IMG/VR virus record: IMGVR_UViG_3300049489_000282
Location: 1 to 41,878 of that record
Direction: 5' to 3' (one strand)
Source of the DNA: a virus
DNA length: 41,878 nucleotides
The notes under the pieces are model-generated. The model saw only the letters and a program-made list of their open reading frames with translations, did not search any database and was not told the DNA's origin. Positions 589-41,155 of this stretch are shown piece by piece (the first letter of the stretch is position 1; every line of letters starts with the position of its first letter). The position numbers and the translations under genes are program-made.

Positions 589-1308
589 ATGGCTATTTTT
601 CCTAATATAATTTTAGAAGATGTGGTGCAGGTAAATGACAAAACGAGACTTGATTTCACTAAAAGTTTTATTAGTAAAAATGAAGCTGCGATTTCGCTTA
701 TTGAGGCTAAGGCTGACACTGGCGAAAGTTTTACTACACTTGGCGCACCTGGCGTATCGAAAGACTGGTATCTCGACTGGCAATACGACACAGCCGGAAC
801 CAAAACAGTGTCCTGTCGTATTACAACAGGCACAGGAGGCGGAGCAGTTGTTACCACATCAACTGCTACATTAAATTGCGTAACGGCTGCTACTGAGAAT
901 TTATTTTCAAGCGATGCTGAACTTGTAGCGTTAGAATATGAAATAATGAAATGGGTACAGCCTGGTAGAAATAGCTTTTTAAACTTTCACAGAAAAGCTC
1001 AAAAACTTATTTTAGCATGGCTAGATGAGTCTGGACGATGGGATGCAGACGGTGCTAAATTAACTGCCGCTGCATTTACTAATCTAGAGGAAATAAGATA
1101 TTGGTCAGCAGCATTAACTTTACATTTAATATTTAGTTCTATTTCAAATGATCCTAATGACGTGTTTAGCTTAAAAGCTAAAACCTATGAATCAATGGCT
1201 TTAGGACATAGGTCACGTCTAGTTTTAAGGCTAGATGTTGACGGTGACGGAACGACAGATGTTAATGAAGGTTTTAAAATATCATCACTCGATTTGGTTA
1301 GACGATAA
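589..1308 (+). CDS. Probable head-tail connector/adaptor with Ig-like N-terminal domain
   Basis: A 239-residue protein with an AGAGG ribosome binding site. Residues about 20-100 read like a beta-sandwich (alternating hydrophobic strands, including KTVSCRITTGTG), as in phage Ig-like or PKD-type domains. The remaining part is mostly helical, resembling head completion or adaptor proteins that cap the portal. Position, directly upstream of a tail-terminator-like gene and the tail tube gene, supports a connector role. The family was not identified by a clear motif, so the assignment rests mainly on gene order in siphoviruses. Confidence 0.55.
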   Translation: MAIFPNIILEDVVQVNDKTRLDFTKSFISKNEAAISLIEAKADTGESFTTLGAPGVSKDWYLDWQYDTAGTKTVSCRITTGTGGGAVVTTSTATLNCVTAATENLFSSDAELVALEYEIMKWVQPGRNSFLNFHRKAQKLILAWLDESGRWDADGAKLTAAAFTNLEEIRYWSAALTLHLIFSSISNDPNDVFSLKAKTYESMALGHRSRLVLRLDVDGDGTTDVNEGFKISSLDLVRR

Positions 1309-1727
1309 TGGCATTAACTAGTGTTAGATCATATTTTAGAACAGCTATGGAAACACTCGGATATGTAGAGTGGCGCGATGGGTTTACGAATGATAATATA
1401 CCATCAACGCTACTAACTAATTCCTTTCACATTGAATCTGGTGACCTTGCTCCCACAGCGAGTAATCATCAAGTTTATGAATTTGATTGCCCAATAACAA
1501 TTCGTGTTTACTTAAAAGGATATTTAGATCCAGTAAGTGCGATTGATGACGCCTATACAGTTGTCGAGGATATATATTCGGAAATCCTACTTCCGAGTGC
1601 TAGACTTGGCTCTGCTATTCAGGACGTTGTACCTGCTGCTGTCAAAGTTAGCCCACTAACTTTACAAAATGACAATGCAGTTTTAGTGGAAATCAATTTT
1701 AACGCAAAAACCTTTTTAGGTTTTTAA
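1308..1727 (+). CDS. Probable tail terminator/tail completion protein
   Basis: 139 residues, with a start overlapping the previous stop as TAATG. The N-terminus has the helix-turn pattern typical of tail terminators (TSVRSYFRTAMETLG), and the C-terminus ends in beta strands (LVEINFNAKTFLGF). Tail terminators normally sit directly before the major tail protein, which is what is seen here. It would stop tail tube growth and make the joint to the head. Assigned by size, fold impression and position, not by a diagnostic motif. Confidence 0.6.
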   Translation: MALTSVRSYFRTAMETLGYVEWRDGFTNDNIPSTLLTNSFHIESGDLAPTASNHQVYEFDCPITIRVYLKGYLDPVSAIDDAYTVVEDIYSEILLPSARLGSAIQDVVPAAVKVSPLTLQNDNAVLVEINFNAKTFLGF

Positions 1728-1755
1728 ATAACTTTAACTTTAGGAGAATTAAGAC

Positions 1756-2655
1756 ATGGGAACTGTAGAAAATATTAGAATTGAGCCGATGGATTGCACA
1801 TGGCGCGATTATGAATCAGAGTCATGGAATTTCACAAATGCTACTGCATCCGGGCTTGGTGGAAAGTATGTGTTAATTGATAACGCTGCTGGAACTGGGT
1901 TTTATGTATGGTTCGATGAAAACAATACCGATACTGATCCGGCAATTGGCGGTCGCACAGCTATTTCTGTTGATTACGCTGCAAGCGCATCAGCTACTAC
2001 TATCGCAACTGCTTTTCAGGTTGCAGTAGCAGCAGCGACTGGATTTGACGCCACAATAGACGGTCTAGTTGTTACATCAATCCGTACAGCTTACGGTGTT
2101 TGCACTGATTCAACAGTTGGCGATGCTGGTGCGTATATTTCATACACACAAGTATCTGACGGGAAAGACGTATATCTCGGATATTTAGATGGCGATATTT
2201 CCGTTGAGCTGGAGGAATCTACACTGGAATTAAATTCGCATCAGACGGGGACAACTTTGCTCGCTGACTTACGTCAGGGTGTTAACGCTACCATTAGTTT
2301 GACACTTAAAGAGAGTGACAACACACTTCGCCAAGCTATGTTTTCAGGAACGGCTGGCGGCGCAGTTGCCGGTGCTACATCTACAGTTTATGGATGGGGC
2401 AATATTAAACAAGGTTTGTCAACTATTGTACAAGCTGGACGTTTGATTATGCATCCTGTAGCGTTAGGTGCCAGTGATTACAGCCGCGATTTTTGCGCGT
2501 GGAAAGCATACCCACTTATTAACTCAATCGTTTTTTCTGGCGAAAATCCAGAGGTAATGGAAATAGAGTTTAAGTGTTATATTGACACAAGCAAGGCTGC
2601 GGGCATAAATTTATTTATGTTCGGGGATCATACACAAGCAGGGCTAACTGCTTAA
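1756..2655 (+). CDS. Major tail (tube) protein
   Basis: 299 residues, preceded by TTAGGAG. It is rich in beta strands with small residues and few charges. The segment around residues 145-185 (DGDISVELEESTLELNSHQ) followed by repeated Thr-rich strands looks like a siphovirus tail-tube subunit, with an inserted variable domain near residues 45-100. It lies between the tail terminator candidate and the frameshifted tail chaperones, the standard place for the tube gene. It would polymerise around the tape measure protein to form the tail tube. Confidence 0.75.
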   Translation: MGTVENIRIEPMDCTWRDYESESWNFTNATASGLGGKYVLIDNAAGTGFYVWFDENNTDTDPAIGGRTAISVDYAASASATTIATAFQVAVAAATGFDATIDGLVVTSIRTAYGVCTDSTVGDAGAYISYTQVSDGKDVYLGYLDGDISVELEESTLELNSHQTGTTLLADLRQGVNATISLTLKESDNTLRQAMFSGTAGGAVAGATSTVYGWGNIKQGLSTIVQAGRLIMHPVALGASDYSRDFCAWKAYPLINSIVFSGENPEVMEIEFKCYIDTSKAAGINLFMFGDHTQAGLTA

Positions 2656-2666
2656 TAGGGGAATGA

Positions 2667-2924
2667 ATGGAACTAGAATTTAAGCGCACCGTTTATAAAA
2701 TAAACATCTACGGAAAAAGTTATGAAATGCGTAGACCCACAGTTCGCGAGATTATCGGGTTCCAGACCTCTGTTAAAGATAATTCTAATCATGAAGAATC
2801 AATCGAGAGGCTTACGGAATTTTTCGTAAGCCTTGGTTTAGATAAAGAAGTAATTAACGATCTAGAAATAGATCACATGACACAAATTGCAGAGACAATA
2901 ATTTCAGCCAATAAAAAAAAATAG
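2667..2924 (+). CDS. Tail assembly chaperone, short form (gpG-like)
   Basis: 85 residues, acidic-helical, ending in ANKKK where three AAA codons run straight into TAG. It sits between the tail tube and tape measure genes, the conserved place of the lambda gpG/gpGT pair. The nine-A run lets part of the ribosomes slip back one base and read on into the next gene, giving a longer gpGT-like product. The short form would bind tape measure protein during tail assembly and is not expected in the virion. Confidence 0.8.
   Translation: MELEFKRTVYKINIYGKSYEMRRPTVREIIGFQTSVKDNSNHEESIERLTEFFVSLGLDKEVINDLEIDHMTQIAETIISANKKK
2913..2924 (+). other. Programmed -1 ribosomal frameshift site (A AAA AAA) before TAG
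   Basis: Nine consecutive A residues end at 2,921, with the in-frame heptamer A AAA AAA at 2,915-2,921 and the TAG immediately after it. Slipping back one base gives ATA GAT GAA TTT and continues open without a stop into the downstream 91-codon gene, producing a fusion of about 186 residues. This is the expected arrangement for tail chaperones of long-tailed phages. The efficiency cannot be judged from sequence. Confidence 0.8.
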
Positions 2925-2950
2925 ATGAATTTGCCTATAAAAAGGCAAAG

Positions 2951-3226
2951 ATGGCGCATTTCTATCATTTCTCAGATAGTCAAATGGAAAACATGATAGG
3001 CGATACTTTCCAAGACTATTGGCTAGCTATTGATTCTATAGAGGCATCCCAACAACTAAACTTAATAAATGTGGCTTGCTATACCTCTATGAAAAAGAGC
3101 GACAGGGAGAAGTTTTATAAGTCACTAAACAAAAAGTGTAAATCTATTTTTATTGAAAAAGATAAGGCAGTATTAAGTATAGAAGAATTTGCAAAAAGAA
3201 TAGCTGAGAATATGAAATATGGCTGA
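2951..3226 (+). CDS. Tail assembly chaperone, T extension (read by -1 frameshift)
   Basis: 91 residues if counted from its own ATG, but there is no good ribosome binding site, and the frame stays open upstream to the slippery A run. It is therefore most likely translated as the C-terminal part of the frameshift product. The protein is helical with several Cys and Lys residues and ends by overlapping the tape measure start by eight bases. In lambda the T domain recruits the tail tube protein to the tape measure complex; the same role is inferred here. Confidence 0.75.
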   Translation: MAHFYHFSDSQMENMIGDTFQDYWLAIDSIEASQQLNLINVACYTSMKKSDREKFYKSLNKKCKSIFIEKDKAVLSIEEFAKRIAENMKYG

Positions 3227-5006
3227 TGACGAAAAAATAGAAATTGAGATAGTTTTAGACGATGGTTCTATTAAAAAGGGCTTCGCTACTATCTCAAAAG
3301 ATTCTAAAAAATTAAGCGATGACTTAGAAAGTAACTTAGGCAAATCATTTACTAGCATAGGTGCAAATGTCGCCAAATTTACAGCCATTGCTTTAGCGGC
3401 TGGCGCTGCCATAGCTGGCGTGATAGCAAAAAAATCTATTGAAGCAGCAAGTGATTATCAAACAGAAGTTAATAGGTTAAATGTTGCACTAGCAACTAGC
3501 GGTCAGTTTTCAAAAGAGGCAAGTGAATCGTTTTTAGAGTTTGCAAATACTTTACAAAAGACAACTAAATTCAGTGACGACCAAGTGGTTTCTGCTGGTG
3601 CTTTAATTCAAACTATTGGTCGCCTTGGTTCAGGCGAATTGCAACGCGCTACTACTGCAAGTTTAGATTTAGCAAGTGCTCTTGGGATTGATCTAGAAAC
3701 TGCGGCACAGCTAGTCGGAAAATCTGCTAATGGTAATATAGCGGCGTTTGCTAGGTACGGAGTTGAAATCCGTAAAGGTTCAAACGATACAGAAACATTT
3801 GCTAACGTATTAAAAACTTTAGAGTCACGTTTTGGCGGCGCAGGTGAAGCGGCAGCACAGACATTTTCAGGATCAATCGAAAAAGCTAAAAATGCTTTCG
3901 GAGATATATTTAAAACAATTGGTTTACAAGTTGTAAGGTCGCCAGCAATAGCGGCGGCAATTAATGAAATTGCAAAACTATTTAGTACAATTTCTGACTC
4001 ACTCGCAAAATCATTTGGCGATAAGGATTTGTTTAAAAGTTTAATTATAAATTTCTCAGTTATAGCGCAAGCCGGATTAGAGTCCGCTAGACAAATAGGT
4101 TTATCATTTGAGCTGGCGGCATTACGCGCACAGCAAGCATGGTATGCGTTTAAAGTTTTAACAACGGCAGGTCTGTCGTCATCATTTAATAAACAGCTCG
4201 ATGACATAAATGCTAAAATAGATGAAACAAAAGCTAAGTTTTCTGAGGAATCAGGCGCAAGCATATTTTTTGATAATTTAATCACTAAAGTTACTGCAAC
4301 AAATGGCAAGCTAATAGAATTAAGTTCTACAATTGTTAATACAGTTGCGCCAGCAATGACGGCAGTTGGAATTTCTATAAGCGATATGTCTGCCGGATTT
4401 GTGCAAGGGTTTACGTCGGCAGTAGATTATTCATCTGCTAAAGTTGGTGACTTGGCAGCAAGATCAGTTTTAGCGAAAGAACAATTAACAAAAGATTTCG
4501 TTGCGGTCGGACAAGCGGCAAAACAAGGTTTAGGAAATGCTGTTGGATCTGGGTTTGCGGCTTTTGGTAAAGCTCTAGTGACTGGTGAAAATGCACTAGC
4601 GGCATTTGCTAAGGCTATGATAGGTGCTATTGGGCAAGCGGCAATAGCTGAAGGTACGGCGATGATTCTTCGTGGTATCGGTTATTCATTCGATCCACTA
4701 CTAGCAGGTTTTGCACCTGGACTAATTGGCGCAGGTTCGGCTCTCGCAGCTTTTGGTGGAGTGCTATCAGCAGTCGGCGGCGGTGGATCTAGTCCGGCAG
4801 GCGGCGGTGGCGGTGCAGGTGGATCAGTTGGTGAACTACCAGCGTCTACGGCTGAAAGTGGAGCGCCAGCTATAGAGGAAAAAAGCACTAACGTAAAAAT
4901 AGACGTAGGCGGCACAGTACTTGATCCGGTAGGCGTAGGCAGACAAATAGCTCAGATATTATCGGACACATTTGAAGCAACTGGTACGAAAGTGGTGACA
5001 TCATAA
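3219..5006 (+). CDS. Tape measure protein
   Basis: 595 residues. It has an N-terminal polar helix, a hydrophobic alanine-rich segment near residues 50-72 (ALAAGAAIAGVIA), long helical stretches, and a middle part with the tape-measure-type pattern LASALGIDLETAAQLVGKSA. A second hydrophobic Gly/Ala region is followed by a glycine-rich linker near residues 515-535. This is the scaffold that sets tail length and often helps DNA cross the membrane. At 595 residues it is short, so a short siphovirus tail is expected. Its position after the frameshifted chaperones is diagnostic. Confidence 0.9.
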   Translation: MADDEKIEIEIVLDDGSIKKGFATISKDSKKLSDDLESNLGKSFTSIGANVAKFTAIALAAGAAIAGVIAKKSIEAASDYQTEVNRLNVALATSGQFSKEASESFLEFANTLQKTTKFSDDQVVSAGALIQTIGRLGSGELQRATTASLDLASALGIDLETAAQLVGKSANGNIAAFARYGVEIRKGSNDTETFANVLKTLESRFGGAGEAAAQTFSGSIEKAKNAFGDIFKTIGLQVVRSPAIAAAINEIAKLFSTISDSLAKSFGDKDLFKSLIINFSVIAQAGLESARQIGLSFELAALRAQQAWYAFKVLTTAGLSSSFNKQLDDINAKIDETKAKFSEESGASIFFDNLITKVTATNGKLIELSSTIVNTVAPAMTAVGISISDMSAGFVQGFTSAVDYSSAKVGDLAARSVLAKEQLTKDFVAVGQAAKQGLGNAVGSGFAAFGKALVTGENALAAFAKAMIGAIGQAAIAEGTAMILRGIGYSFDPLLAGFAPGLIGAGSALAAFGGVLSAVGGGGSSPAGGGGGAGGSVGELPASTAESGAPAIEEKSTNVKIDVGGTVLDPVGVGRQIAQILSDTFEATGTKVVTS

Positions 5007-15500: not shown

Positions 15501-15642
15501 TTTGTTCCTCTGTTTGTATTGTAAAAGGCATGTTTTTAAAATGTAAATCTAGCATCATATAGGCATGGGCTAGACTAGAAAATTTTAAAATTATTGATCT
15601 TGCCCCATATTCTTTTGGCAAACTTACTATAGCTTTCAGCAT
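15394..15642 (-). CDS. Hypothetical protein overlapping two neighbours, 82 aa
   Basis: The ATG has a strong GGGGGAG nine bases upstream and lies within the last 68 bases of the glycosyltransferase gene. Its 3' part runs for 107 bases in a different frame over the next gene. The first half (KAIVSLPKEYGARSIILKFS, then a helix) reads like a real protein, whereas the last third uses codons dictated by the overlapping gene. It may be a true short gene that has lost its original stop. Confidence is modest. Confidence 0.4.
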   Translation of the reverse strand: MLKAIVSLPKEYGARSIILKFSSLAHAYMMLDLHFKNMPFTIQTEEQNADKTKLHRREWQKCYNGVVFTDDNRSEAAADPVR

Positions 15643-17158
15643 TCCTACACTCCCCCATGTACAAATCTAGTAGCACAGGGAGCTGTATATACGCATTAAA
15701 TATGGTAATTGCCACAAGAATTGTAAAATTTATATAGTTATAGCCTTGAGTAATTCGGTATATGACCATAGATAGGGTAATTATGGGTGTTAATATGGTT
15801 ATAAAGGCATAGAATTTCATGAAATCCTGATACCTTTTCGAGTTATTTGTTCCGCCGGTCGGAATCCAAGCCTCTGCCGTCTGCATGATTATGTCTTTAA
15901 GTGCATAAATATGTGCATAAAATGATACTTGCCGGACGCGCAAAACGTCTAAATCATACGGCAATTTCTGCCAGTATTTCATGTAAACTGTTGATAGAAA
16001 AAGACTGGGGATAGAGAAAAGTAAATTGAACCAATAAATATATTCAGGATGAAATATCAAAAGATAAATTGATGGTATAGTGGCGAATATCACAGATAGG
16101 CCTGTTGTTAAATAATAAAACATGCCAGACAAGTAACAAATCTTTTGCATTACGCTCATGCCTTTTGCCCAAAATTCTTTTGACAACATCAAGTCAAGTG
16201 AACCCATTGACCAGCGATAGTATTGCGTAAAAAAAGATTTCCAATTTTCAGGGCATGTGCCCATTGCTAAGTTTATTGGGATATATTTAACTTTACCGCC
16301 AACTGCTGCGAGCCTGAAGCCAGTTCTAACGTCTTCAGAAAACCCGATGGCCGATGTGCCGCCAAACTGTTCGAGTGCTGATCTTCTATAGCAAGCATTA
16401 CTGCCGACGCATATCGCACCATCGAACGTATCGCGTGATACTTGAATCAGTCTATAAAATAATTCCTGCACACTTGCTGACCCTTTTTGCACCCTAGTTA
16501 ATTCATTTGTAACTTCAAAAAACTGAGGGCTTTGCACAATGCCAACAGAATTATCAACATACATATATGGCATCACGTTTATAATAAAATCAGTTCGCGG
16601 GCAAAAATCGGCGTCAAATATAATAAAAAAAGGTGCAGTTGTTTTAGTAAACGAATGACGGAGGTTCCCCGCCTTTTTTAATTCATTTGTTCCGCGATCT
16701 ATATAATTAAATTGAAAAATTTCGGCTAACTTTTCTACATCTTTTGAGTGACCATCATCTAGCACATATACTTTTATTTTACCCTCATGCGCCTCAACAA
16801 GTTTTGAAACATAGACCCATGTATTTCTAATCAGCTCTATCGGCTCATTACATACTGGTAGCAAAATATCTATTTCTTCATTAGCTGATGGCACATGATA
16901 GCGCGTGATAAGCCCAACATGCCTATCGAAATTAAAATCATCGCCAAATATTCCGACAGCATAAGTAAGCAGCAAGTAGATGATAGTTAATATAGAAAAT
17001 ATTAAATACGGCACAAATGCAGGATTTGATTTAATAAATAAAATCATACCGACTGTTAGCAGTATTGTCGATAGCGCAGACAATGAATATAAATCACGTC
17101 TGCCGCTATCTAAGTATAAAAACTTTTGTATATTATTTGGCGATTTGGGTAAATACAT
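15575..17158 (-). CDS. Processive family-2 glycosyltransferase (cellulose/hyaluronan synthase-like)
   Basis: 527 residues with every hallmark of a membrane polysaccharide synthase. Two N-terminal membrane helices (about 27-45 and 50-70) come first, then the GT2 core: YVLDDG (134-136), KAGNLRH (162-168), FDADF (182-184), QSPQFF (209-214), FSED (274-276) and the acceptor motif QYYRW (312-316). About four more helices follow (335-372, 375-392, 450-467, 476-498), with WIPTGGTNN at 431-439 where the gating loop lies in BcsA. No PilZ domain follows, so no cyclic-di-GMP control is expected. It should polymerise a UDP-sugar and push the chain through the inner membrane. The sugar cannot be told from sequence. 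Confidence 0.88.
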   Translation of the reverse strand: MYLPKSPNNIQKFLYLDSGRRDLYSLSALSTILLTVGMILFIKSNPAFVPYLIFSILTIIYLLLTYAVGIFGDDFNFDRHVGLITRYHVPSANEEIDILLPVCNEPIELIRNTWVYVSKLVEAHEGKIKVYVLDDGHSKDVEKLAEIFQFNYIDRGTNELKKAGNLRHSFTKTTAPFFIIFDADFCPRTDFIINVMPYMYVDNSVGIVQSPQFFEVTNELTRVQKGSASVQELFYRLIQVSRDTFDGAICVGSNACYRRSALEQFGGTSAIGFSEDVRTGFRLAAVGGKVKYIPINLAMGTCPENWKSFFTQYYRWSMGSLDLMLSKEFWAKGMSVMQKICYLSGMFYYLTTGLSVIFATIPSIYLLIFHPEYIYWFNLLFSIPSLFLSTVYMKYWQKLPYDLDVLRVRQVSFYAHIYALKDIIMQTAEAWIPTGGTNNSKRYQDFMKFYAFITILTPIITLSMVIYRITQGYNYINFTILVAITIFNAYIQLPVLLDLYMGECRNAESYSKFAKRIWGKINNFKIF

Positions 17159-23520: not shown

Positions 23521-23738
23521 CGTTCTCTGAGAGGCTACAGTCTGACACTCAGGCAATAAGAGGCGTAATGAATGAAGTCTTGGTTACGCAAGACCGCTTC
23601 CTATTGGCTTGTGCTGTGGTTGATGTGCTTGAGGGTGGACTTAAATACTATGCTGTCAATTATTCATTAGCTCAGCAAATAGAAGCGAAATGGGCACTAG
23701 ACGAGGCAAGAAAACTTTTAGAAACAAAGGAGACATGA
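23517..23738 (+). CDS. Hypothetical early protein, 73 aa
   Basis: ATGA-coupled. All helical, with alternating hydrophobic and charged faces (LLACAVVDVLEGGLKYYAVN). No domain recognised. Part of a chain of tiny coupled genes. Confidence 0.6.
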   Translation: MTFSERLQSDTQAIRGVMNEVLVTQDRFLLACAVVDVLEGGLKYYAVNYSLAQQIEAKWALDEARKLLETKET

Positions 23739-23739
23739 G

Positions 23740-24006
23740 GTGAAAGTAATAGTAGAGCAAAAAGAACAAGAAGGATTAGAGGCGTTTTTAGGTAGTCGCA
23801 TTTTATTAATGTGCGCTGGATATTTTTACGAAGGTCGTTTGATTGGCGTAAATAAAACGTGCGTGAAGTTAGAAGATGCTGCAATTGTTTATTCGACTGG
23901 AGCGTGGAGTGACAAAAGTTACTCGGATATTCAAAAGCTACATTGCAAAGATTGGTATGTTAGAAAAAGTCTTATAGAAAGTTTTGGAGCTAGTAAAAAT
24001 GTATAG
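23740..24006 (+). CDS. Hypothetical early protein with small beta-barrel-like core
   Basis: 88 residues from a GTG following GGAGACATGAG. The middle part, [20 protein letters not shown] then [13 protein letters not shown], has the strand pattern of an Sm-like or SH3-like barrel, found in several phage early proteins of this size. Confidence in the fold is low. The stop overlaps the next small gene. Confidence 0.55.
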
Positions 24007-24166
24007 CCCTAGGAGTTTTCGCAATAGGTCAGGGTCAGGGTCATGGTCATGGTCAAGGTCATGGTCAGGGTCAGGGTCATGGTCAAGGTCAGGGTCATGG
24101 TCAAGGTCAGGGTCAGGGTCAGGGTCATGGTCAAGGTCAGGGTCAGGGTCAGGGTCATCAATATGA
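23999..24166 (+). CDS. Ser-Gly/Arg/Trp dipeptide-repeat protein (minisatellite coded)
   Basis: 55 residues from an ATG that has GGAG at good distance and overlaps the previous gene's end. After [10 protein letters not shown] the protein is Ser alternating with Gly, Arg or Trp to the end. The hexamer repeat has no stop in any forward frame, so length alone is not evidence, but the ribosome binding site and the ATGA coupling to the next gene favour this frame. It resembles RS/RG low-complexity chains that bind nucleic acid. Whether it is expressed is open. Confidence 0.4.
24027..24158. repeat. 22-unit hexanucleotide minisatellite GGTCAN
   Basis: Twenty-two perfect GGTCA units in a row, each followed by one variable base that is G, T or A and never C. 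The order of the variable bases is GGTTATGGTAGTAGGGTAGG then GT, with a recurring T-A-G(-G-G) block. No substitution or indel occurs at any other position. This shows recent growth by slippage or unequal crossing over in blocks of several units. The tract is GC-rich against its surroundings. Confidence 0.97.
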
Positions 24167-24243
24167 CCTTCAAAGACCAGTGCATAGCGAGGATTGAGAA
24201 GGCGGCGGGTGAGCATGAGTCTGAGTCATTGCTTGACCTATGA
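24163..24243 (+). CDS. Short peptide, probable remnant of a phage early gene
   Basis: 26 residues beginning [18 protein letters not shown], overlapping the repeat gene's stop as ATGA. The opening resembles the start of longer helical phage proteins of the same region, and here it ends early at TGA. It may be a truncated gene; the bases after the stop do not continue a convincing frame. The area is more GC-rich than the rest of phage A. Confidence 0.35.
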
Positions 24244-24280
24244 GGCCGCAGACTAACCGCACAGGCGAGGAGAAGAGAGA

Positions 24281-24487
24281 ATGAGTGAACTAAGACCAGA
24301 CGGCACTATACCAGCCGCTACATTTATGCTAGCACCAAAGAAATATAGATGCCTTAAATGTTCTGAGGTAAGAGCCTTTGTTGGTATTCATGTATCAGAG
24401 AATGGTAATTTCAGAAGTTATTGCGCCTCTTGTTTTGAAAAGCTGATTAAAGATAATTGCGGCGAAGTTGTTGAGGTTGAAGAATGA
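24281..24487 (+). CDS. Small zinc-finger protein
   Basis: 68 residues, with GAGGAGAAGAGAGA upstream. Two CxxC knuckles, C24/C27 (RCLKC) and C48/C51 (YCASC), spaced as a single zinc ribbon, then an acidic tail (GEVVEVEE). It is ATGA-coupled to the next gene. The role is unknown; nucleic-acid or protein binding is likely. Confidence 0.7.
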   Translation: MSELRPDGTIPAATFMLAPKKYRCLKCSEVRAFVGIHVSENGNFRSYCASCFEKLIKDNCGEVVEVEE

Positions 24488-24906
24488 ACACCTGCATCTG
24501 TCATGAAACAAGCGCGAGGAATTGCCCAGTCCATAATGAGCCTGTGGCGCGTGAGTGGTGGATTGAGAAGGGCGCATTTCAATATAGATGTGTTGAAAGT
24601 AATTTGGATTTATTAGGTTGGAACGCAGATGGGAAAGGCGCAACCCACGTCATCGAATATGCTGCCTATGAAAAACTCAAAGCAGAGAATGAGGCGTTGA
24701 GGGCAGAACTAAATAGAGTTATTGATATTGCTCATGGTGACAGTGACGAAAATGCACAGCTTAAAGATAAACTGGCGATTGCTAGAGAGGCTTTAGAAGC
24801 AGCAGAAGCAGCAATAGCAGTTTTCGGAGTTACTGCTTACGGTCAGTATAACCCAAAATGTAGCAGTCTTTTAATTGTTAAATCGGCACTGGAGAAAATG
24901 AAATGA
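24484..24906 (+). CDS. Early protein with N-terminal Cys/His motif and coiled coil
   Basis: 140 residues. The first 17 contain C4, C6, H7, C14 and H17, a compact possible metal site. A Trp-rich beta segment follows, then a long coiled coil (YEKLKAENEALRAELNRV) and alanine-rich helix. Proteins with this build, a short recognition part before a KAENEALR-type coil, are common in phage early operons. Function unknown. Confidence 0.65.
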   Translation: MNTCICHETSARNCPVHNEPVAREWWIEKGAFQYRCVESNLDLLGWNADGKGATHVIEYAAYEKLKAENEALRAELNRVIDIAHGDSDENAQLKDKLAIAREALEAAEAAIAVFGVTAYGQYNPKCSSLLIVKSALEKMK

Positions 24907-25031
24907 AAGTGCTATTTGGATTTATTCTTTTAGCTTTAGCCAGAATTATAATTGAAGATAACTCTATATTCTTTGGTGTAGTCTTGCTTATTTTTTCTAA
25001 TCAACTTGTGTTTGGGAATAAAATGAAATGA
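24903..25031 (+). CDS. Small two-helix membrane protein
   Basis: 42 residues, ATGA-coupled on both sides. Two hydrophobic stretches, VLFGFILLALARIII and FFGVVLLIFSNQLVFG, separated by EDNS, give a hairpin in the inner membrane. Could be a holin-like or superinfection-exclusion peptide; nothing is diagnostic. Confidence 0.5.
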   Translation: MKVLFGFILLALARIIIEDNSIFFGVVLLIFSNQLVFGNKMK

Positions 25032-25976: not shown

Positions 25977-26489
25977 ATGGAAATAAAATGTAGTTATACT
26001 GAGTTAAGAGATGTAGTTAACATGGTTGAAAACCCGAAGAACTATAATAAGCATAGCTCTCGCCAAATAGATATGCTGGCAAAGATTATGAATTTTCAAG
26101 GCTGGCGCCATCCAATAGTGGTATCTAAAAGATCAGGTTTTATAGTCGCTGGTCATGGACGATTACAAGCTGCTAAGAAATTAGGATGGGATAAGTGCCC
26201 GATAGATTTACAAGACTTTCCTGATGAGGCAACTGAGCTGGCTTTTTTAGTTTCTGACAACAAAATCCAAGAGCTAGCAGAGACCGACAACGACATGCTA
26301 CTTGAGATAGCCACATCTTTAGGTGATAGTTTTGATACTGAGCTTTTGGGTCTTGATACAGACATAATGATTCAGCCACTTGACGAAGTTGTAGAGCATG
26401 AAGGTTTAGAAAATGTTAAAATAGTTATTCTAGAGTGTCCACATTGTAACCAGACTTTTGAACAGGCTCAGGCTAAAATTGTCGGATAA
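25977..26489 (+). CDS. ParB/Srx-like domain protein
   Basis: 170 residues with GGGAGG upstream. The ParB-like core is clear: NPKNYNKHSSRQIDMLAKIM, then HPIVVSKRSGFIVAGHGRLQ with the GHxRLxA motif, and a helix ending in WDKCPIDL. A CPHC at the C-terminus suggests an added metal site. In phages this domain is often placed next to DNA methylases and may act as a nuclease or DNA-modification partner. It overlaps the methylase gene. Confidence 0.85.
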   Translation: MEIKCSYTELRDVVNMVENPKNYNKHSSRQIDMLAKIMNFQGWRHPIVVSKRSGFIVAGHGRLQAAKKLGWDKCPIDLQDFPDEATELAFLVSDNKIQELAETDNDMLLEIATSLGDSFDTELLGLDTDIMIQPLDEVVEHEGLENVKIVILECPHCNQTFEQAQAKIVG

Positions 26490-27366
26490 ATATGGATTGC
26501 CTTACCAAGGATCTAAGACAAAAATAATAGATCAGATAGCTAAATTATTCCCTAGTGCCGATCATTTTTACGATTTATTTGGCGGAGGATTTTCAGCAAG
26601 TCATTATATGCTTAGACATAGGTCAAGATCTTATAAGCAGTTTCATTACAATGAACTACGTCCTGGTTTATGCGAGCTGATTAAAGATGCGATAGCTGGC
26701 AAATATAATTATAAAATATTTAAGCCTGAGTGGATTACGCGTGAGCGTTTTATGGCTGATAAAGAAAAAGATGTTTATATTAAAATCATTTGGTCATTTG
26801 GCAATGATGGAGCTTCTTATTTATTTGGAAAAGAGATAGAGCAGCCAAAGCGCAGTATGCACATGGCAGTTGTGTTTGATGAATATGACGATTGGTTTAA
26901 AACTACCTTTAGGATAAATAAATTCCCAGATGGCTTGGGAATTAAGGCAAGGCGGCTGTATCTTAGAAAACTAATTAGGCATATTGGTAGAATCGACATC
27001 CAACAGCTCCAACAGCTCGAACGGCTCGAACAGCTCCAACAGCTCGAACAGCTCCAACAGCTCCAACGGCTCGAACGGCTCGACCTAACTAATTTAGATT
27101 ATCGCAAAGTCATTATAAAGCCTAACTCAGTTATCTATTGCGATATTCCGTACAAAGGCACTGGTGATTACGGTAATGGATTTAACCATAAAGATTTTTT
27201 TGATTGGGCGGATAATCAAGTAAATCCGGTGTTTATATCTGAGTATAAAATAGATGATCCAAGGTTTTATTTATTAAAAGAGATATCGCATCGGACTACT
27301 TTTTCTAATGGCGGTAATAGTTTAGTTAAAGAAAGAGTATATTGCAATAAGGCTGCTAAAACCTAG
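26479..27366 (+). CDS. Dam-like adenine-N6 DNA methyltransferase with internal repeat
   Basis: About 295 residues from a TTG that begins MSDKYGLPYQGSK; a TTG seven codons upstream is the alternative. Motif X is YQGSK (9-13), motif I DLFGGGFS (32-39), motif IV DIPY (222-225) in place of DPPY, then KGTGDY. This is the D12-class layout. Between motifs, residues 175-201 are nine tandem tripeptides (QQL, ERL, EQL, QRL). It would methylate adenine to guard phage DNA from host nucleases or to time packaging. No matching restriction gene is nearby. Confidence 0.85.
   Translation: MSDKYGLPYQGSKTKIIDQIAKLFPSADHFYDLFGGGFSASHYMLRHRSRSYKQFHYNELRPGLCELIKDAIAGKYNYKIFKPEWITRERFMADKEKDVYIKIIWSFGNDGASYLFGKEIEQPKRSMHMAVVFDEYDDWFKTTFRINKFPDGLGIKARRLYLRKLIRHIGRIDIQQLQQLERLEQLQQLEQLQQLQRLERLDLTNLDYRKVIIKPNSVIYCDIPYKGTGDYGNGFNHKDFFDWADNQVNPVFISEYKIDDPRFYLLKEISHRTTFSNGGNSLVKERVYCNKAAKT
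27001..27081 (+). repeat. 9-unit 9-bp coding minisatellite in the methyltransferase gene
   Basis: Nine tandem units of SAACRGCTC (S is C or G, R is A or G), with no other variation. Only two positions differ, changing Gln to Glu at the first codon and Gln to Arg at the second, so every difference is amino-acid changing. The third codon is always CTC for Leu. The unit length keeps the frame, so unit number can change without breaking the enzyme. Confidence 0.95.
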
Positions 27367-33492: not shown

Positions 33493-33780
33493 ATGGCGCG
33501 TTTAGGTGACATTAGAAATAACCAGCAAAACACATATAAGTTAGTTAATGAAAACGGCAATGCTGAAGTGGCGCAAAGGGTTTCTATTGCTGAAACTATA
33601 GGATCAGTATTAAATTCAGTTAATTGGGACGGCGGATCTTTAGCTCTACCCGATGCCGTAACTGAGATATATTCATTTAAGACTGGTGGATCTTCGGGCA
33701 CAACAGTTGCGACAGTTACTCTCGTATATACAAGTGCAGCAAAAACGTATTTGCTCACTTGGGATATTGTTGTGGTGTAA
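33493..33780 (+). CDS. Hypothetical late protein, 95 aa
   Basis: Mostly beta, with VTLVYTSAAKTYLLTWDIVV near the end. Directly precedes the large fibre gene by three bases and may be its partner or a small virion component. No family recognised. Confidence 0.6.
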   Translation: MARLGDIRNNQQNTYKLVNENGNAEVAQRVSIAETIGSVLNSVNWDGGSLALPDAVTEIYSFKTGGSSGTTVATVTLVYTSAAKTYLLTWDIVVV

Positions 33781-33783
33781 TAA

Positions 33784-36285
33784 GTGGGATATAAATTTAA
33801 TCCATTCTCAGGAAATTTCGACATAGATAATGTAGGTGCTGGCGGCGGTTCATACACAGATGAGCAAGCTCAAGATGCAGTATTTGGTGCAATGGTAGAT
33901 TCCAGCTCGATTGATTTTCAATATAATGATGTGGCTAATACATGGACGGCAGTAGTTCTTCCGGCTGGGGTAGATCATAACTCACTTGCTAATTTAGCAG
34001 TTGGTGATCCTCATACGCAATATGCGATAGAGTCGGCTTTAGATAACGTAGCATACACTGGATCACATACAGACTTATCTGCAATAGGTACAAACACTCA
34101 CGCGCAGATTGATACACACATTGCCGACACTTCAATTCATACGCCATTTACAATTACTTCTGCATCCGATGGTCAGACATTAAGATACGACTCTGCGACT
34201 TCTCGATGGGTTAATAATTCAGTAATTAGAAATAATGGTACTGTAGAAATAAATCCTACAGCGGTAGCCGCTAATCAGCCTTATTGCTTTCTCATAGATC
34301 ATGCTGCGACTAACTTAATTGTAAATCCTAGCTTTGAAGTGAACATCACTGACGGCTGGTCTGCGACTGGAGTCTCGACAAATACTCGTGACACTACTCA
34401 AGCATGGATAGGATCTGCATCACTCAAGATCGTATCAACTGCAAAAGATGGAGGAGTGATTAGCCCATCAATTGCGGTTTCATCTAATACTTCTTACGTT
34501 GTTTCTTGTTATGTTAAGGGTAACGCAGGAGGCGAGTCGTTTTATATCACAGCGACTAAAAATATAAGTGGTGCAGTTCATAGTTCTAACCCGACAGGCG
34601 CATTTGATGGCTTAAGTATTCACAATCAAATCAATACAGAATGGTCTAGAGTAACGCTTGGGTTTACGACAGGCGCTAGTGATACGAGTGTGACTATTGC
34701 TTTAAGATCAAGACTTGCTACATCACAAACTATATTTGTTGACGCGGTTTTATTTGAGCAAAAGAATTTGCCTTCGGACACTAATGAGATTTCATTTGCG
34801 TCATCTTATTTTGATGGCAGCATGGGGCTTGGTTATGCGTGGTCAGGTACAGCGCACAATAGTTCATCTACGAGATCGGCAGGGGCTAAATTTCTTGCGC
34901 CACTTGCGACAACTGCAAATCGTGGTAATTTTGTTTTGCGCACTGACGGCACTATAGCGCGATGTTTATTCGATGCAAAAGAAGTGCAAGCTGGGGATTT
35001 CCAAGGGACAAGAAACGAGCCATTCTTTCCGTTCACATTTACAGGAAATATAAAAGACAATGTGCTTTTAAGCGGTATTTCATCAGGAGTTGTAAATGTT
35101 AAAAACACAGCTAATGGCGTAGGGCTACAAGTCGCATCAGCGGCCACGACTGCATTTGCTTTTATCGTTAGTGCTGACGCGGTAACGTCCGGCGCGTGTA
35201 TGGGAGTTTTTGCGCCCAGTGATTTAACGGCCATGCAAGCGGCAGGGGGAAAATTCTTTACGTTCGCGGGTAAAGGTCAGGGCTTAGATATGTACACTTG
35301 GAAAGTTGACAGTGTACAAATGGGTGCCCTTGGATTTAGGTTTCAAAAAAATATCGTCGCTTATGGGGGAGCTTCGCAGACCGCAACGGCAAGAGCAATA
35401 GCTGGCACTGTGTCTGTAACCGCTGGCAGCCCTACGGTTACAACTGCGTCAGGATTTTTAACTAACTTCAAACGCGGTCAAGCGATCAATATAAATAACG
35501 GCGGTGCTAGTAACGTAATTTATACGATAGCCTCAATTACAAGTGACACATCATTAACACTGACAAGCAATTACGCCGGAACTACAAACGCGGCTCGAAC
35601 TTACGCTGGACTCACCGAGCAGTACGCTCCTCCGGTTATTCACTTAGAGGGTAATTACGGCAATCATGGTACTAGTGGAACCATTTCTGGAGACTTTGTT
35701 TATGGAATTTATGCAAGTGGAGGTAATGGCCAGCTTCATGTAATGAAGTCTGCGGCTCGTGGCGTTGCGGTCACTCCGACAGCGGATCACACGGGCAATG
35801 GATTAGTCACAGCAAGGCAAGTCCTGACAAACAGCGGCCTCATTTTTGGGGTGAATACTGAAACGACAATGATCTCAGGCTATACAATTCCGGCTTATGA
35901 GTTAACACCAGGAGGAGCATTTAGAATTTCATTTGTTGGATCTGCGCTTATGGACAATCTTGTGAGAACTTTAACATGGAAAGTTAAACTTGGCGGGACA
36001 ACAATTTTAACGAGCACAGCCGTTCAGGTTGGCGTTGTAGGAACTGTCGTATATCGGGGCGTGATTGAAATTTATGCTCCGACGACAACTACGCAAATAT
36101 GCAGCTTAAGTATTACAGGTAAAGATCAGGCGTCATTGCTTCCTGGGCTTACTTACTCCGTTAGTAACATTACAACAACGGGTACGGTAGATATGAGATT
36201 AGACCAAGCATTAACAGTAACCGCACAAGCTGATCTTGCTGGGCAGGTGATAACAGTTTCAGGAGTGACAACTGAAATACTATAA
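33784..36285 (+). CDS. Large tail fibre/spike with glycan-binding-like module
   Basis: 833 residues from a GTG coupled to the previous gene. The N-terminus has the fibre motif DHNSLANLAVGDPHTQY (about residues 60-76). Then NLIVNPSFEVNITDGWSAT, near residues 178-196, opens a CBM_4_9-like beta-sandwich. The rest is beta-rich with low charge and ends in short strands (ITVSGVTTEIL). It should form an elongated trimer for receptor binding. The CBM-like module recurs in the gene at 6,621, without sharing the rest. Confidence 0.75.
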   Translation: MGYKFNPFSGNFDIDNVGAGGGSYTDEQAQDAVFGAMVDSSSIDFQYNDVANTWTAVVLPAGVDHNSLANLAVGDPHTQYAIESALDNVAYTGSHTDLSAIGTNTHAQIDTHIADTSIHTPFTITSASDGQTLRYDSATSRWVNNSVIRNNGTVEINPTAVAANQPYCFLIDHAATNLIVNPSFEVNITDGWSATGVSTNTRDTTQAWIGSASLKIVSTAKDGGVISPSIAVSSNTSYVVSCYVKGNAGGESFYITATKNISGAVHSSNPTGAFDGLSIHNQINTEWSRVTLGFTTGASDTSVTIALRSRLATSQTIFVDAVLFEQKNLPSDTNEISFASSYFDGSMGLGYAWSGTAHNSSSTRSAGAKFLAPLATTANRGNFVLRTDGTIARCLFDAKEVQAGDFQGTRNEPFFPFTFTGNIKDNVLLSGISSGVVNVKNTANGVGLQVASAATTAFAFIVSADAVTSGACMGVFAPSDLTAMQAAGGKFFTFAGKGQGLDMYTWKVDSVQMGALGFRFQKNIVAYGGASQTATARAIAGTVSVTAGSPTVTTASGFLTNFKRGQAININNGGASNVIYTIASITSDTSLTLTSNYAGTTNAARTYAGLTEQYAPPVIHLEGNYGNHGTSGTISGDFVYGIYASGGNGQLHVMKSAARGVAVTPTADHTGNGLVTARQVLTNSGLIFGVNTETTMISGYTIPAYELTPGGAFRISFVGSALMDNLVRTLTWKVKLGGTTILTSTAVQVGVVGTVVYRGVIEIYAPTTTTQICSLSITGKDQASLLPGLTYSVSNITTTGTVDMRLDQALTVTAQADLAGQVITVSGVTTEIL

Positions 36286-36294
36286 GGGGAGAGT

Positions 36295-36672
36295 ATGAAT
36301 TTTGACGAGCTACAAACTAGACTTGAGGAAAAGATAAGCGAAGGTCGAACTAACCCAATTGGTTATGGCGGCGGTGATTTGACTGGGATGTCAATAATTG
36401 AAGCTGATGTTATGCGCTCACCTTGCAGGGCTTTACGCTGGCTATCTGATAACTCACTTTTTAATTTTGAGACTTTTGTTACTCTCTCATCCGTCGAAGG
36501 ATGGCAGGGAATAAACGTCTATAATAAAGACGGCACACTTCACCGGACGATTAAGGTTCAAATGGGCGGCGGCGAAAACGCAGATCCAAAAAATCAGATT
36601 TACATTAACAACCGCGCCATTATACTAGAGGCAATTGCGATGCTATGGGAAGAATTAAATCTAGGAGGCTAG
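36295..36672 (+). CDS. Conserved late protein, 125 aa
   Basis: Preceded by AGGGGAGAGT, a strong site. The sequence starts helical (MNFDELQTRLEEKISEG) and has a Gly turn (PIGYGGGDLTG) and a helical end. Its last 56 bases recur at the window start, so it closes the phage A circle. No family recognised; it lies among fibre and connector genes. Confidence 0.75.
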   Translation: MNFDELQTRLEEKISEGRTNPIGYGGGDLTGMSIIEADVMRSPCRALRWLSDNSLFNFETFVTLSSVEGWQGINVYNKDGTLHRTIKVQMGGGENADPKNQIYINNRAIILEAIAMLWEELNLGG

Positions 36673-36819
36673 TGTGAGCAAATGTCCTTTATGTTATGGT
36701 GAGCTTAAGACCTTTAGTTTATCGTTTGGTTCAGTGATGAATCTATGCGAAAGCTGCGACATAGAGATGACAGAGAAAGAATTGGTAGAATTAAAAGCTG
36801 CGACTTATGATTCGATAAT
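36617..36819 (+). repeat. Terminal direct repeat, right copy, running into the phage junction
   Basis: Partner of 1-203. The first 117 bases are identical; four mismatches lie at 36,734-36,745 and one at 36,811. From 36,820 the similarity to the left copy drops, as nearly every codon changes its third base and the sequence becomes GC-richer. The upstream side is phage A, the downstream side phage B. Confidence 0.9.
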
Positions 36820-36970
36820 CGCACACCTTCTCGAGAGCGGAGATGATGTCAGGCGAAGAGAGAGGGTGCGGACGAAAATCGCACTGAAGAACATCAAACA
36901 GTGGGCTGCGGCCAATCTCACAGGAGATGAAAAAAGCCCTCTCATGCCCGCAGACGAAATTCATTGCTAG
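36674..36970 (+). CDS. Zinc-ribbon protein, mosaic A/B allele
   Basis: 98 residues. Residues 1-48 match the phage A allele with one change (Ile21 to Val) and keep C4, C7, C25 and C28. Residues 50-82 are about three-quarters identical in protein (HLLESG, RRRE, RTKIALKNIK, WA) yet use quite different, GC-richer codons, and the last 15 residues are unrelated. The same homologous gene is therefore stitched from two lineages in frame. It is followed by phage B packaging genes. Confidence 0.85.
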   Translation: MSKCPLCYGELKTFSLSFGSVMNLCESCDIEMTEKELVELKAATYDSIIAHLLESGDDVRRRERVRTKIALKNIKQWAAANLTGDEKSPLMPADEIHC

Positions 36971-36999
36971 CATACTCTCCTTCGTGTAACACTCATCCT

Positions 37000-37593
37000 A
37001 TGACTGACGACGAAGAAGAAGCAGCTCCCGAAAGCACAGAAGAGACAGACGCCGACGCTACGACCTACCAGACGCTTGCACAGGGTGTCCTCTCACCACG
37101 TCACCGTCGCATGGCTCAGCTCGCAGCCGAGGGACGTTCAAACACAGAAATAGGCCGTGAACTCGGATACGTTGACTCAAGAGTCTCCGTTCTCCTCCGC
37201 AATAAGCACATCATGACCGAGATCGCTCGCCTACAGGAGCGCATCTTCGAAGAGACGATCGCACAGCGAATGAAATCCTTCGCCGAGCCCGCACTTCAGA
37301 ATATTCACATGATACTCACGGACAAGACGAACCGAGTGAGGGTCAGCGAAAAGGCCGAAATGAGTAAATGGGTTGTCGAGAAACTCGACGGCAAGGCCGT
37401 TCAGAAGACAGACATCGGAGAGAATCTCCTCGGACTATTCCTCGATAAGCTCGACTCACGTCAGACCCAGTCCGCACCCCAACGAGAGGTCACACCCAGT
37501 GGAGCCCCGGACATCGAAACAAAGGCGCTACCGGAGCCCCCGAAGGACGAACTCGAGAGCTGGGTCGATGACTTTTGCAGCGAGTCAGAGTAA
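37000..37593 (+). CDS. Probable terminase small subunit, phage B
   Basis: 197 residues from the ATG; upstream in-frame TTG is unlikely and no clear ribosome binding site is visible. After an acidic leader (residues 1-22) comes a helix-turn-helix (RRMAQLAAEGRSNTEIGREL), as in sigma-like terminase small subunits, then a long helical part. The C-terminus is acidic and proline-containing. It lies 84 bases before the large terminase. Codon use is GC-rich, like all following genes. Confidence 0.75.
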   Translation: MTDDEEEAAPESTEETDADATTYQTLAQGVLSPRHRRMAQLAAEGRSNTEIGRELGYVDSRVSVLLRNKHIMTEIARLQERIFEETIAQRMKSFAEPALQNIHMILTDKTNRVRVSEKAEMSKWVVEKLDGKAVQKTDIGENLLGLFLDKLDSRQTQSAPQREVTPSGAPDIETKALPEPPKDELESWVDDFCSESE

Positions 37594-37605
37594 ATCACTC
37601 TCGCC

Positions 37606-37677: not shown

Positions 37678-39267
37678 GTGACGAGAGATGAAGTATTAAA
37701 GCTCGATGCCCTCTCTCGCTATGAACTTTTTCGTAATGATCCATGGCAATTTCTCACACACTGTGTATTCACGCACGATGAAGTCGATCGCGACAATCCG
37801 ATCAAACAATTCCCTGTGCATCTTGATTACTTAAAATTTCTCGTAAAAATGTGGCAGGCCAGGAAGAAGCTCGCGATACCGAAATCACGTCGTTTGACCG
37901 TCTCGTGGACATTCATTGCTCTCGGTCTGTGGGACTGCATCTTCCACAAGGGATGCTCTTGGGCATTCGTATCGAAAAAGGAAGAAGACTCTAAAGAGCT
38001 CGTGCAACGGGCGAAATTCATTTACGATCACATCCCTGCGGAGATGATCGCACCCGAGCTCTTGCCAAAACTAAAACGCGGAGAAATGCAATCCAGTCCG
38101 CCGCTAATGGAGTTCACAGATATTCACTCTAAGATTATGGGCTTCCCTGCGGGTGGAAATCAATTACGTCAACGTGGTTTCTCTGGAATATTCGAAGATG
38201 AAATCGCATTCTGGGAAGAAGCAGAGGCCGCATACGCGTCAGCAGAACCGACAGTCAAGGGCGGCGGTCGCATGGTCATGGTCAGTACGCGCTTTCCTGG
38301 TTTCTTCAAGAAAATCGTCTACGATCGTCTCGATGAAAAGGATCTTAATTACTCCGAAAATCCGCCAACGACTCCGAAGTCTCCCATGGAAGGGGTCGAC
38401 GTGTGGACGAATCCCGTGAATGGATTTACAGTTATTGATCTCAGTCACCGAGCTAATCCAGCGAAACGCGATCCGATCTTCGAGGCTGAGCTACGTAAGA
38501 CACTCCCCCTGCATTTATTCAACATGGAATATGGCAAAAGCTGGGCGAGCTTCGAGGGTCGCTCCGTGTACGAGGATTTCAATGCGGGACTTCATTTCAT
38601 TCGTCGCGAACCGGATCTCGCAGTCGGGCTTCCCGTGCTGATCGGCTGGGATTCCTCCGGTCTCACTCCTGCCGTCGTGATCGGACAGCTTCAGGAGGAG
38701 AAGCTCATCATCTTTCGCGAGCTGATCGGCTCGGGCATGGGTGCAACGAGATTCGTCCCATGGGTCGCAGAGACCCTGCGCTTCGCCTATCCGCAGATCA
38801 CGGACATCGCAAAACAGACGATTTCCTTTTTCGATCCGGCGGGATTCAAGAAGAACGAGATCACCGAGCAAACGTACCTTCAGGCCATGATGGCCGGAGG
38901 TTTTAAGCAGATTCGCCCCGGTCCTATGATGTGGGAGAAGAGACGCGAAGCTGTCACCGAGAGGCTCGTCGGACTCGCTAATAAGGAGCCGAAAATCGTA
39001 ATCTATGAACAGGGCTGTCCGATTCTCTCGGCTGGATTCAAAGGCGGATACCGTTACTCGGACAATATCGCGAACGCGGAGCCGGACAAAGTCCGTCCTG
39101 TAAAGGACGTCCATTCACATCCGCAAGATGCACTTCAGTATCTATGCGGGGGTCTCCGTGGATTCCGCACAGAGGGCGGATACGATAAAATTCCAACACC
39201 AAGTTACTCATTCCAAAAACACGAACACACAAGCGGAAGACCGCAATTAAGGAAACGCTATGGCTAA
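37678..39267 (+). CDS. terL: Terminase large subunit, phage B
   Basis: 529 residues from a GTG. The ATP-binding loop is the variant IPKSRRLTVSW (67-77), seen in podovirus-type terminases that lack the classic GKS. Walker B is GIFEDEIAFW with E173-D174-E175. The nuclease acids are in LIGWDSSG, FFDPAG and HPQDALQYL. It shows no close likeness to the phage A enzyme in motifs or length. It overlaps the portal gene by eight bases, so the two are coupled. Confidence 0.9.
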   Translation: MTRDEVLKLDALSRYELFRNDPWQFLTHCVFTHDEVDRDNPIKQFPVHLDYLKFLVKMWQARKKLAIPKSRRLTVSWTFIALGLWDCIFHKGCSWAFVSKKEEDSKELVQRAKFIYDHIPAEMIAPELLPKLKRGEMQSSPPLMEFTDIHSKIMGFPAGGNQLRQRGFSGIFEDEIAFWEEAEAAYASAEPTVKGGGRMVMVSTRFPGFFKKIVYDRLDEKDLNYSENPPTTPKSPMEGVDVWTNPVNGFTVIDLSHRANPAKRDPIFEAELRKTLPLHLFNMEYGKSWASFEGRSVYEDFNAGLHFIRREPDLAVGLPVLIGWDSSGLTPAVVIGQLQEEKLIIFRELIGSGMGATRFVPWVAETLRFAYPQITDIAKQTISFFDPAGFKKNEITEQTYLQAMMAGGFKQIRPGPMMWEKRREAVTERLVGLANKEPKIVIYEQGCPILSAGFKGGYRYSDNIANAEPDKVRPVKDVHSHPQDALQYLCGGLRGFRTEGGYDKIPTPSYSFQKHEHTSGRPQLRKRYG

Positions 39268-41155
39268 AGAAAAAGAAGAAATGACCGAGCAGCAAATTAT
39301 AACTTATATCATGGACTGTCGCGGAGAGGCGGACGAAGCTAAACGGGAGCGCATGGACCGCAACAAAGACAACTACGATATGTTTCACTTGCGTCACGAT
39401 TTCAGTCATAAGAGAGACGGTCAATCGCAAGAGATCCTATCGAAGCAGAGTATGGCTGTCGAGATGACTAAAGCGACCTTTCAGCAGGCGCTCGCGGACT
39501 TCGGCGACTGGTGGTCAGCGGAGATATGCTACCCGGACGCTGAGATGACCATGAAAGTACGTCCGCATGAGATCACGAAACTCACGAACTACATGCTCGA
39601 ATGCTCGCGCTACTACAGTCACGTCGGTAATTCCGTCGAATCAGCACTTCTCTCTTCACTCGCGATCACGAAAGTCACCGGAAAACTGCGTCCGAAACCT
39701 AAATTCATCGCACGAAAGAAGGGACGAGGCGCGGGACTCAAACGCTGGGTCGATAAGATCGACAATAAAACATGGGAAGTCGATTTTCAGAGTGTCCGTG
39801 CAGAGAATTACTACCCTGATCCTACCTCAGAGCGCAATAAGCTATACGAAATCGAAGATGCATGGGTCGATATGCATGAACTCATCGCAATGGCCGAACA
39901 AGATTCGGATTTCGTCCTTCCCGATGGACTCGCCGGGCAGGGCGTCGACGAAACCGAGGAGGTCTTCAAGAAAGCACGAGAGACCGGACAAAGCACTCCA
40001 GCTTCGGGGCCGCGACTCAAAGTAAAGCTCACTGAATTCTGGGGTACGATCGTTCATCCGACCTCAGGTGAGATCATTCATGAGAATGTCCAGGCAATAA
40101 TCGCGAACGACAAAGATCTCATTCTGAAACCGCGACCTAATCCACTATGGCATCAAGGCTCCCCATACGTAGCAAGTCCTCTTCTCGAGGTCGCAAATTC
40201 CGTATGGCATAAAGCACTAATGGATGCACCGACGCGCCACAATCGCGCACTCATCGAGATGTATAATCTCATGGTCGATGCGGCCATGATGCAGGTGCAT
40301 GGGATCAGTCAGCTCCGGAAGGATTGGCTAGATAATCCGGCCCAGGTCTCAGACGGCATCGAACCCGGCATGGCAATCGGAGTGAATTCAATGTGTCCAC
40401 CCGGGGGAAAAGTCCTCGAGCCCCTCGTCAATGTCGTAATCCCCGCCGAGGTCTTCTCCGTCTTTAACATTCAAGGACAGGAGTTCTATTCGTCTGCGCT
40501 GACCTCGGATCTACGCTCAGGGATCACTCCGTCACGCGAACAAAAAGCAACGGCGATCGTCGAACAGAGTCAGACGATCACGTCTGTCTCTACGGGCATG
40601 AGCAAGAACTACGAGGCACGACAGATCACTCGCGAACTCGAAGTCGCATGGCAAACGACGGCACAGAATTGGGACATGATCGACCGTGAGGTATTTATCT
40701 CGCTCTTCGGCACACAACGAGGAGCCGAACTTGCTGATCTTCCTCCGCAAGAGGTCTTCGCAAGTACCGTTAACGGAGTGCGCTTCCGTGTCTTCGGAAT
40801 CACACAGACCCTCGGTAAAGCGCAGGACTTCCGAAAGCTCACGACACTTCTTCAGACGGTCGCATCTAGTCCGCAGCTTCTCGAGGAGTATCTCAAGAAG
40901 TACGATCTCGGTAAGACTCTCGGCGAGGTCATGACCGCGCTAGATATAGATAAGCATAAGCTAGAGATTCCCGAGGCCGTTCAACGAACAATGCAAGAGC
41001 CGCAGGGGGAGCCGACACCGCAGCCCGATCAAATGAGTCAGGTTCCACAAGCGGGCGCAATGAGCGACATGATGGGAGCTAGTACGCCGGGCGGAATCCC
41101 CCAAGTTCAATTTCCCGGCAGTCCAGCGAACATTGGCGGAAATAACCAACAATAA
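39260..41155 (+). CDS. Portal protein, phage B (podovirus head-to-tail connector type)
   Basis: 631 residues, AAGGAAACGCT upstream. Landmarks are VRAENYYPDPTSERNKLYE (portal wing), SPYVASPLLEVANSVWHKAL and REQKATAIVEQSQTITSVST, the pattern of large P22/N4-like portals. The C-terminal 60 residues are Pro/Gln/Gly-rich and disordered. It is unrelated to the 506-residue phage A portal. Confidence 0.85.
   Translation: MAKEKEEMTEQQIITYIMDCRGEADEAKRERMDRNKDNYDMFHLRHDFSHKRDGQSQEILSKQSMAVEMTKATFQQALADFGDWWSAEICYPDAEMTMKVRPHEITKLTNYMLECSRYYSHVGNSVESALLSSLAITKVTGKLRPKPKFIARKKGRGAGLKRWVDKIDNKTWEVDFQSVRAENYYPDPTSERNKLYEIEDAWVDMHELIAMAEQDSDFVLPDGLAGQGVDETEEVFKKARETGQSTPASGPRLKVKLTEFWGTIVHPTSGEIIHENVQAIIANDKDLILKPRPNPLWHQGSPYVASPLLEVANSVWHKALMDAPTRHNRALIEMYNLMVDAAMMQVHGISQLRKDWLDNPAQVSDGIEPGMAIGVNSMCPPGGKVLEPLVNVVIPAEVFSVFNIQGQEFYSSALTSDLRSGITPSREQKATAIVEQSQTITSVSTGMSKNYEARQITRELEVAWQTTAQNWDMIDREVFISLFGTQRGAELADLPPQEVFASTVNGVRFRVFGITQTLGKAQDFRKLTTLLQTVASSPQLLEEYLKKYDLGKTLGEVMTALDIDKHKLEIPEAVQRTMQEPQGEPTPQPDQMSQVPQAGAMSDMMGASTPGGIPQVQFPGSPANIGGNNQQ

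Follow-up and report, generated by a model that had tools for sequence, protein, structure and literature searches.

The window, which is the entire IMG/VR record (linear, 41,878 bases), is probably a chimeric assembly path in which the complete circle of one phage, A, is followed by 5 kb of a second phage, B, the two being connected through a stretch at the end of a fibre cassette after a recent natural exchange. Bases 1–36616 (39% GC) are most likely the whole circle of siphophage A, and the final 5 kb are most likely part of a different phage, B, unrelated to A. The assembler would have left a shared node, followed circle A, returned to the node and continued into B. The stretch shared by the two phages would be the right-hand end of a mobile host-recognition cassette consisting of a pre-fibre gene, a fibre gene and the small genes up125 and Zr. 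An old copy of Zr in B, already adapted to the base composition of B, would have had its 5' part overwritten by recent homologous recombination with an A-like phage, leaving a mosaic gene whose boundary is near 36819.

A repeat search of the window revealed a pair of copies at 1–290 and 36617–36906 with 87% identity. The left copy opens at contig base 1, and its first 117 bases (1–117, + strand), which take in the final 56 bases of up125 and the beginning of the phage A allele of Zr (Zr-A, 58–321, + strand, 87 aa with CxxC...CxxC), are identical to 36617–36733 (+ strand) in the right copy. This exact part is followed by a near-identical step of 86 bases (36734–36819, + strand) with five mismatches at repeat positions 118, 120, 127, 129 and 195, four of those within two codons, and from repeat position 204 the mismatches become dense, with 55 of 94 bases (~58%) identical between the copies from 36820 on. 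The change point was located at repeat position 203 (window 36819) with a maximum chi-square of 44.6, a value reached in none of 20,000 permutations (permutation maximum 25.8). The right copy belongs to a hybrid Zr gene (36674–36970, + strand, 98 aa) with an A-like 5' part and a B-like 3' part. The diverged 3' part (36820–36970, + strand) has the codon usage of phage B (GC3 0.56) and encodes protein homologous to that of A and of a second contig, G001 (IMGVR_UViG_3300049489_000776, 55.9 kb); of the residues encoded after 36820, 24 out of 34 are identical to those of A, while 100,000 shuffles give at most 11. The earlier note had described a right copy that starts as phage A and turns into a distinct allele within the same gene, mismatches that come in steps, and a protein that still matches while the DNA diverges, all of which was borne out. 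It had also proposed a switch to G/C endings in nearly all codons, and here the direction is right, with 15 third-position changes to G/C and five to A/T past the change point, but the extent was overstated. Across the Zr gene GC3 rises from 0.39 to 0.56, compared to 0.56–0.60 in the downstream B genes and about 0.22–0.43 in the A genes of the first 36.6 kb.

The gene order supports a closed phage A. In siphoviruses the MCP, connectors, tail and tape measure genes usually follow each other in that order. In the window the terS-to-MCP block is located at 27.4–33.2 kb (terS at 27413, terL at 27804, portal at 29035, scaffold at 31672 and MCP at 32319) and the likely connectors (at 589 and 1308, identified from their position and size, with no family match), a tail protein (1756) and the tape measure (3219) at 0.6–5 kb. 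When 36616 is joined to 1, the MCP, fibre cassette, connectors, tail and tape measure come in sequence, and it is only by closing through the repeat that the usual siphovirus order is obtained in A. The piece of up125 that opens the window is likewise the end of the gene preceding Zr at the opposite end of the contig. Among the other features of phage A are a 527-aa cellulose-synthase-like glycosyltransferase (15575–17158, - strand, Glyco_trans_2_3), a tandem array of GGTCAN hexamers situated within overlapping ORFs (24014–24170), and a D12 adenine methyltransferase (26458–27366) with a 48% homologue in L004, the closest relative of B.

Downstream of the hybrid gene follow, all on the + strand, a small terminase (37000–37593, phrog_51, 2.1e-4; the ORF is listed from 36964 with an ATG at 37000) with homologues in the relatives of B, a large terminase (37678–39267, phrog_2, 3.9e-17) and a portal or head-tail connector (39260–41155, phrog_332, 1.8e-5). 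The terL and portal of B match a set of contigs at 60–80%, the terL identity being 62–80% in L004–L012 and 44–45% in L021 and L022, and the portal being 61–68% identical in relatives. No BLASTP match at 1e-3 was found between the terL proteins of B and A, no 16-mer beyond 36820 is common to the first 36,616 bases on either strand, and the GC content is 52% in B versus 39% in A. The earlier note described the second packaging module as unrelated, and terS, terL and portal are indeed unlike those of A. In one relative of B, L102, about five additional genes, one of them a phrog_240 head protein, are inserted between terS and terL (895–4175), showing that the packaging module takes inserts.

It is very improbable that the contig is a single real molecule, whether a recombinant genome of A and B or a pair of tandem prophages. 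The contig does exist as assembled, but such a molecule would carry two terminase-portal sets of different composition plus all of A, and the joined genome would be larger than the genome of A itself, which the A head presumably fits; furthermore, a Pfam search of A proteins that covered part of the small ORFs revealed no integrase.

The start of the contig was compared with a toy de Bruijn graph, in which circle A and B share exactly 117 bases, at k of 55, 77 and 99, values which may differ from those of the real assembler. For all three values a unitig starts exactly at base 1, so that the contig start is as a 117-base shared node predicts, while an exact shared tract of 2 kb moves the start to 64, 42 and 20, respectively. 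A long exact tract common to both phages was rejected as an explanation of where the contig starts, as it fits only an unusual k near 117–118. At the join the exact repeat of 117 bases exceeds all three k values, and in the toy graph the contig start falls at the same node, as expected of an assembly chimera. This bears on the possibility that the A-to-B junction is real in B, the fibre, up125 and Zr 5' part of A having been taken whole and near-unchanged, so that only the A circle is an assembly product. Such a B would be natural, as the fibre family occurs on the distant B-type contigs L021 and L022–L024 and a tail-fibre gene is found upstream of terS in L010; however, the long exact tract would place the start at 64, 42 or 20 and not at 1, and in GC3 the fibre (0.32) and up125 (0.40) do not resemble B genes, although the same would be true of a recent import. 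A junction of this kind is regarded as unlikely, if conceivable.

Comparison of the three Zr sequences suggests that the chimeric path follows on a recent exchange. Past the fork 94% of the first 86 bases agree with A but only 58% of the following 94, and hence the Zr of B itself, or of a close strain, must be mosaic. In the 5' part A and B are near-identical and G001 is at ~72%, whereas in the 3' part A is nearer to G001 (68 of 91 bases, 75%) than to B (58%); A being nearest to B in one part and to G001 in the other, a recent exchange leaving the Zr of B mosaic is the best reading. Since a plain assembler jump needs an A-like tract in B, we also infer a recent exchange of DNA. A purely technical chimera, in which template switching during amplification or a misjoined read connected old diverged Zr alleles with no recent exchange, would find short matches for a strand switch, the Zr homologue being present in both phages and exact runs of eight bases occurring at repeat positions 196–203 and 217–224, and the records yielded no natural B whose Zr is A-like. 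Against this, the five differences in 86 bases are not simply A DNA, so that a strain variant of A would be required as well, and a de Bruijn join requires a match with B of k bases or more, which makes a technical origin improbable. In the earlier note recombination and an assembler path were put forward as alternatives; the evidence favours both at once, an assembly path for the contig and a mosaic Zr for the step pattern.

Some points count against this combined explanation of an assembly path after a recent exchange. Zr and up125 are absent from all loci checked in B relatives, several of which reach only a short way upstream, and the B sequence upstream of 36820 is known from no other contig. 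Furthermore, if read pairs spanned the 117 bases, the preference for B over A at the fork would be left unexplained. We infer that the assembler took the B branch, in which direction the exchange took place and that the rest of the cassette is present in B.

The cassette is ordered pre-fibre gene (33493–33780, + strand, 95 aa), fibre gene (33784–36285, + strand, 833 aa), up125 (36295–36672, + strand) and, last, Zr. The fibre protein has an N-terminal KFNPF motif, a CBM_4_9 domain (aa 177–309) and a tail-fibre match (aa 539–612), and with the latter two it is likely to function in binding to the host surface. In each of the five phage groups that were compared, a relative of the pre-fibre gene lies ahead of the fibre, with weak similarity in some. 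When comparing A with G001, the DNA was found to be 67% identical over 34084–36907, which spans fibre residues 95–833, up125 and Zr. Within this region fibre residues 95–833 are 70% identical, up125 is 72% identical and Zr-A is 75% identical to its homologue, while the first 94 fibre residues are poorly alignable except for the KFNP motif. Of the proteins of the window that were compared, mainly those of the cassette have a match in G001, with three weak matches of other small proteins including the pre-fibre gene product, and the only other resemblance in DNA consists of short near-identical patches at 23.6–24.9 kb. These are scattered patches of 20–54 bases in a run of small ORFs (23613–24907 against L016 17325–19164, reverse strand), mostly 88–100% identical with one at 83%, and constitute a second region of contact, whose origin appears to be more recent than that of the fibre cassette.

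In L100, a relative of A (MCP 65%), the MCP, a 64-aa gene and the pre-fibre gene are kept, but the fibre slot holds a different protein of 145 aa, in which a weakly similar N-terminus is followed by a short unrelated body. Among B-type contigs, L021 contains terL and portal (45%) followed by a pre-fibre gene and by a fibre of 46% identity that is truncated where the contig ends, and L022–L024 have the order 155-aa gene, pre-fibre gene, fibre (31–34%) and B-type terL and portal (41–44%), where the 155-aa gene looks like terS by position and sequence. In L010, which is nearer to B, a tail-fibre gene is situated two genes upstream of terS. These arrangements indicate that a fibre cassette beside the terminase genes is normal in the B group, and a Zr in front of the terS of B fits with this. 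As L021 and L022–L024 pair B-type terL and portal with the fibre family, the idea that the packaging module of B lies next to the cassette by chance was abandoned. A conserved fibre body combined with a differing N-terminal part, and a cassette present in otherwise unrelated genomes, are what is found here, and judging from these comparisons A, G001 and the B-type phages represent fibre-cassette exchange between unrelated backbones, a known kind of event.

The join would lie inside Zr because Zr is the end gene of this cassette. Of the two small genes, Zr, which the earlier note called a zinc-ribbon gene, gave no PHROG match and nothing above the cut-off in Pfam, although all four Cys of its CxxC knuckles are conserved in the three sequences; its predicted model is of low confidence (pLDDT 56). 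The predicted model of up125 (pLDDT 70) gave best fold matches with low TM-scores, none with an E-value of 0.001 or lower, and the candidates dGTPase inhibitor, ribosome hibernation factor and ERF-like protein were dropped since the matches are too weak. In the viral contigs G001 was the sole other match for Zr, and the same result was obtained for up125; no match for Zr was found in genome contigs, an exact 23-base pattern had no occurrence in viral contigs, and phage records held no match for window DNA 36295–37600 nor for the Zr or up125 proteins. The suggestion in the earlier note that the gene is a crossing point between unrelated phages stands as far as Zr is a cassette-end gene in unrelated backbones and B-type phages carry the fibre family, but a preference of exchange for Zr itself would be conjectural, because Zr was seen in only two IMG/VR contigs, the present one included. 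It is rather improbable that Zr, together with up125, is a standing homology handle at the cassette edge, with copies kept so that fibre ends can swap by homologous recombination; were it so, swaps inside Zr would be possible even between unrelated backbones.

With an assembly path through a recently exchanged cassette end as the preferred explanation, a public virus record probably combines two phages and would thereby lead counts, taxonomy and host prediction astray; dividing the record at about 36617 is probably advisable. The region further provides a base-level example of the end of a host-recognition cassette, and one fibre family is seen on three unlike backbones, those of A, G001 and the B type.

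That unrelated phages exchange fibre modules is already documented, and the present case adds a further fibre family and its end gene. The Alteromonas phages A5, V22 and P24 share a host-recognition module on unrelated backbones, and exchange across morphotypes in Alteromonas phages was inferred from synteny and homology (PMC10579305). As in that module, a fibre and one or more small downstream genes are common to unrelated backbones; however, the downstream gene of A5, V22 and P24 is a characterised fibre chaperone while up125 and Zr would at most be candidates for such a role, and in the present case the Zr gene itself contains the recombination boundary. Mosaic phage genomes share unitigs, and repeats can yield chimeric contigs (Phables, PMC10563150). 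The present contig resembles the cases discussed there in being chimeric at a repeat or module common to mosaic phages, and goes beyond them in that one contig holds a whole circle and the start of a second phage, which allows the shared node to be proposed with single-base precision.
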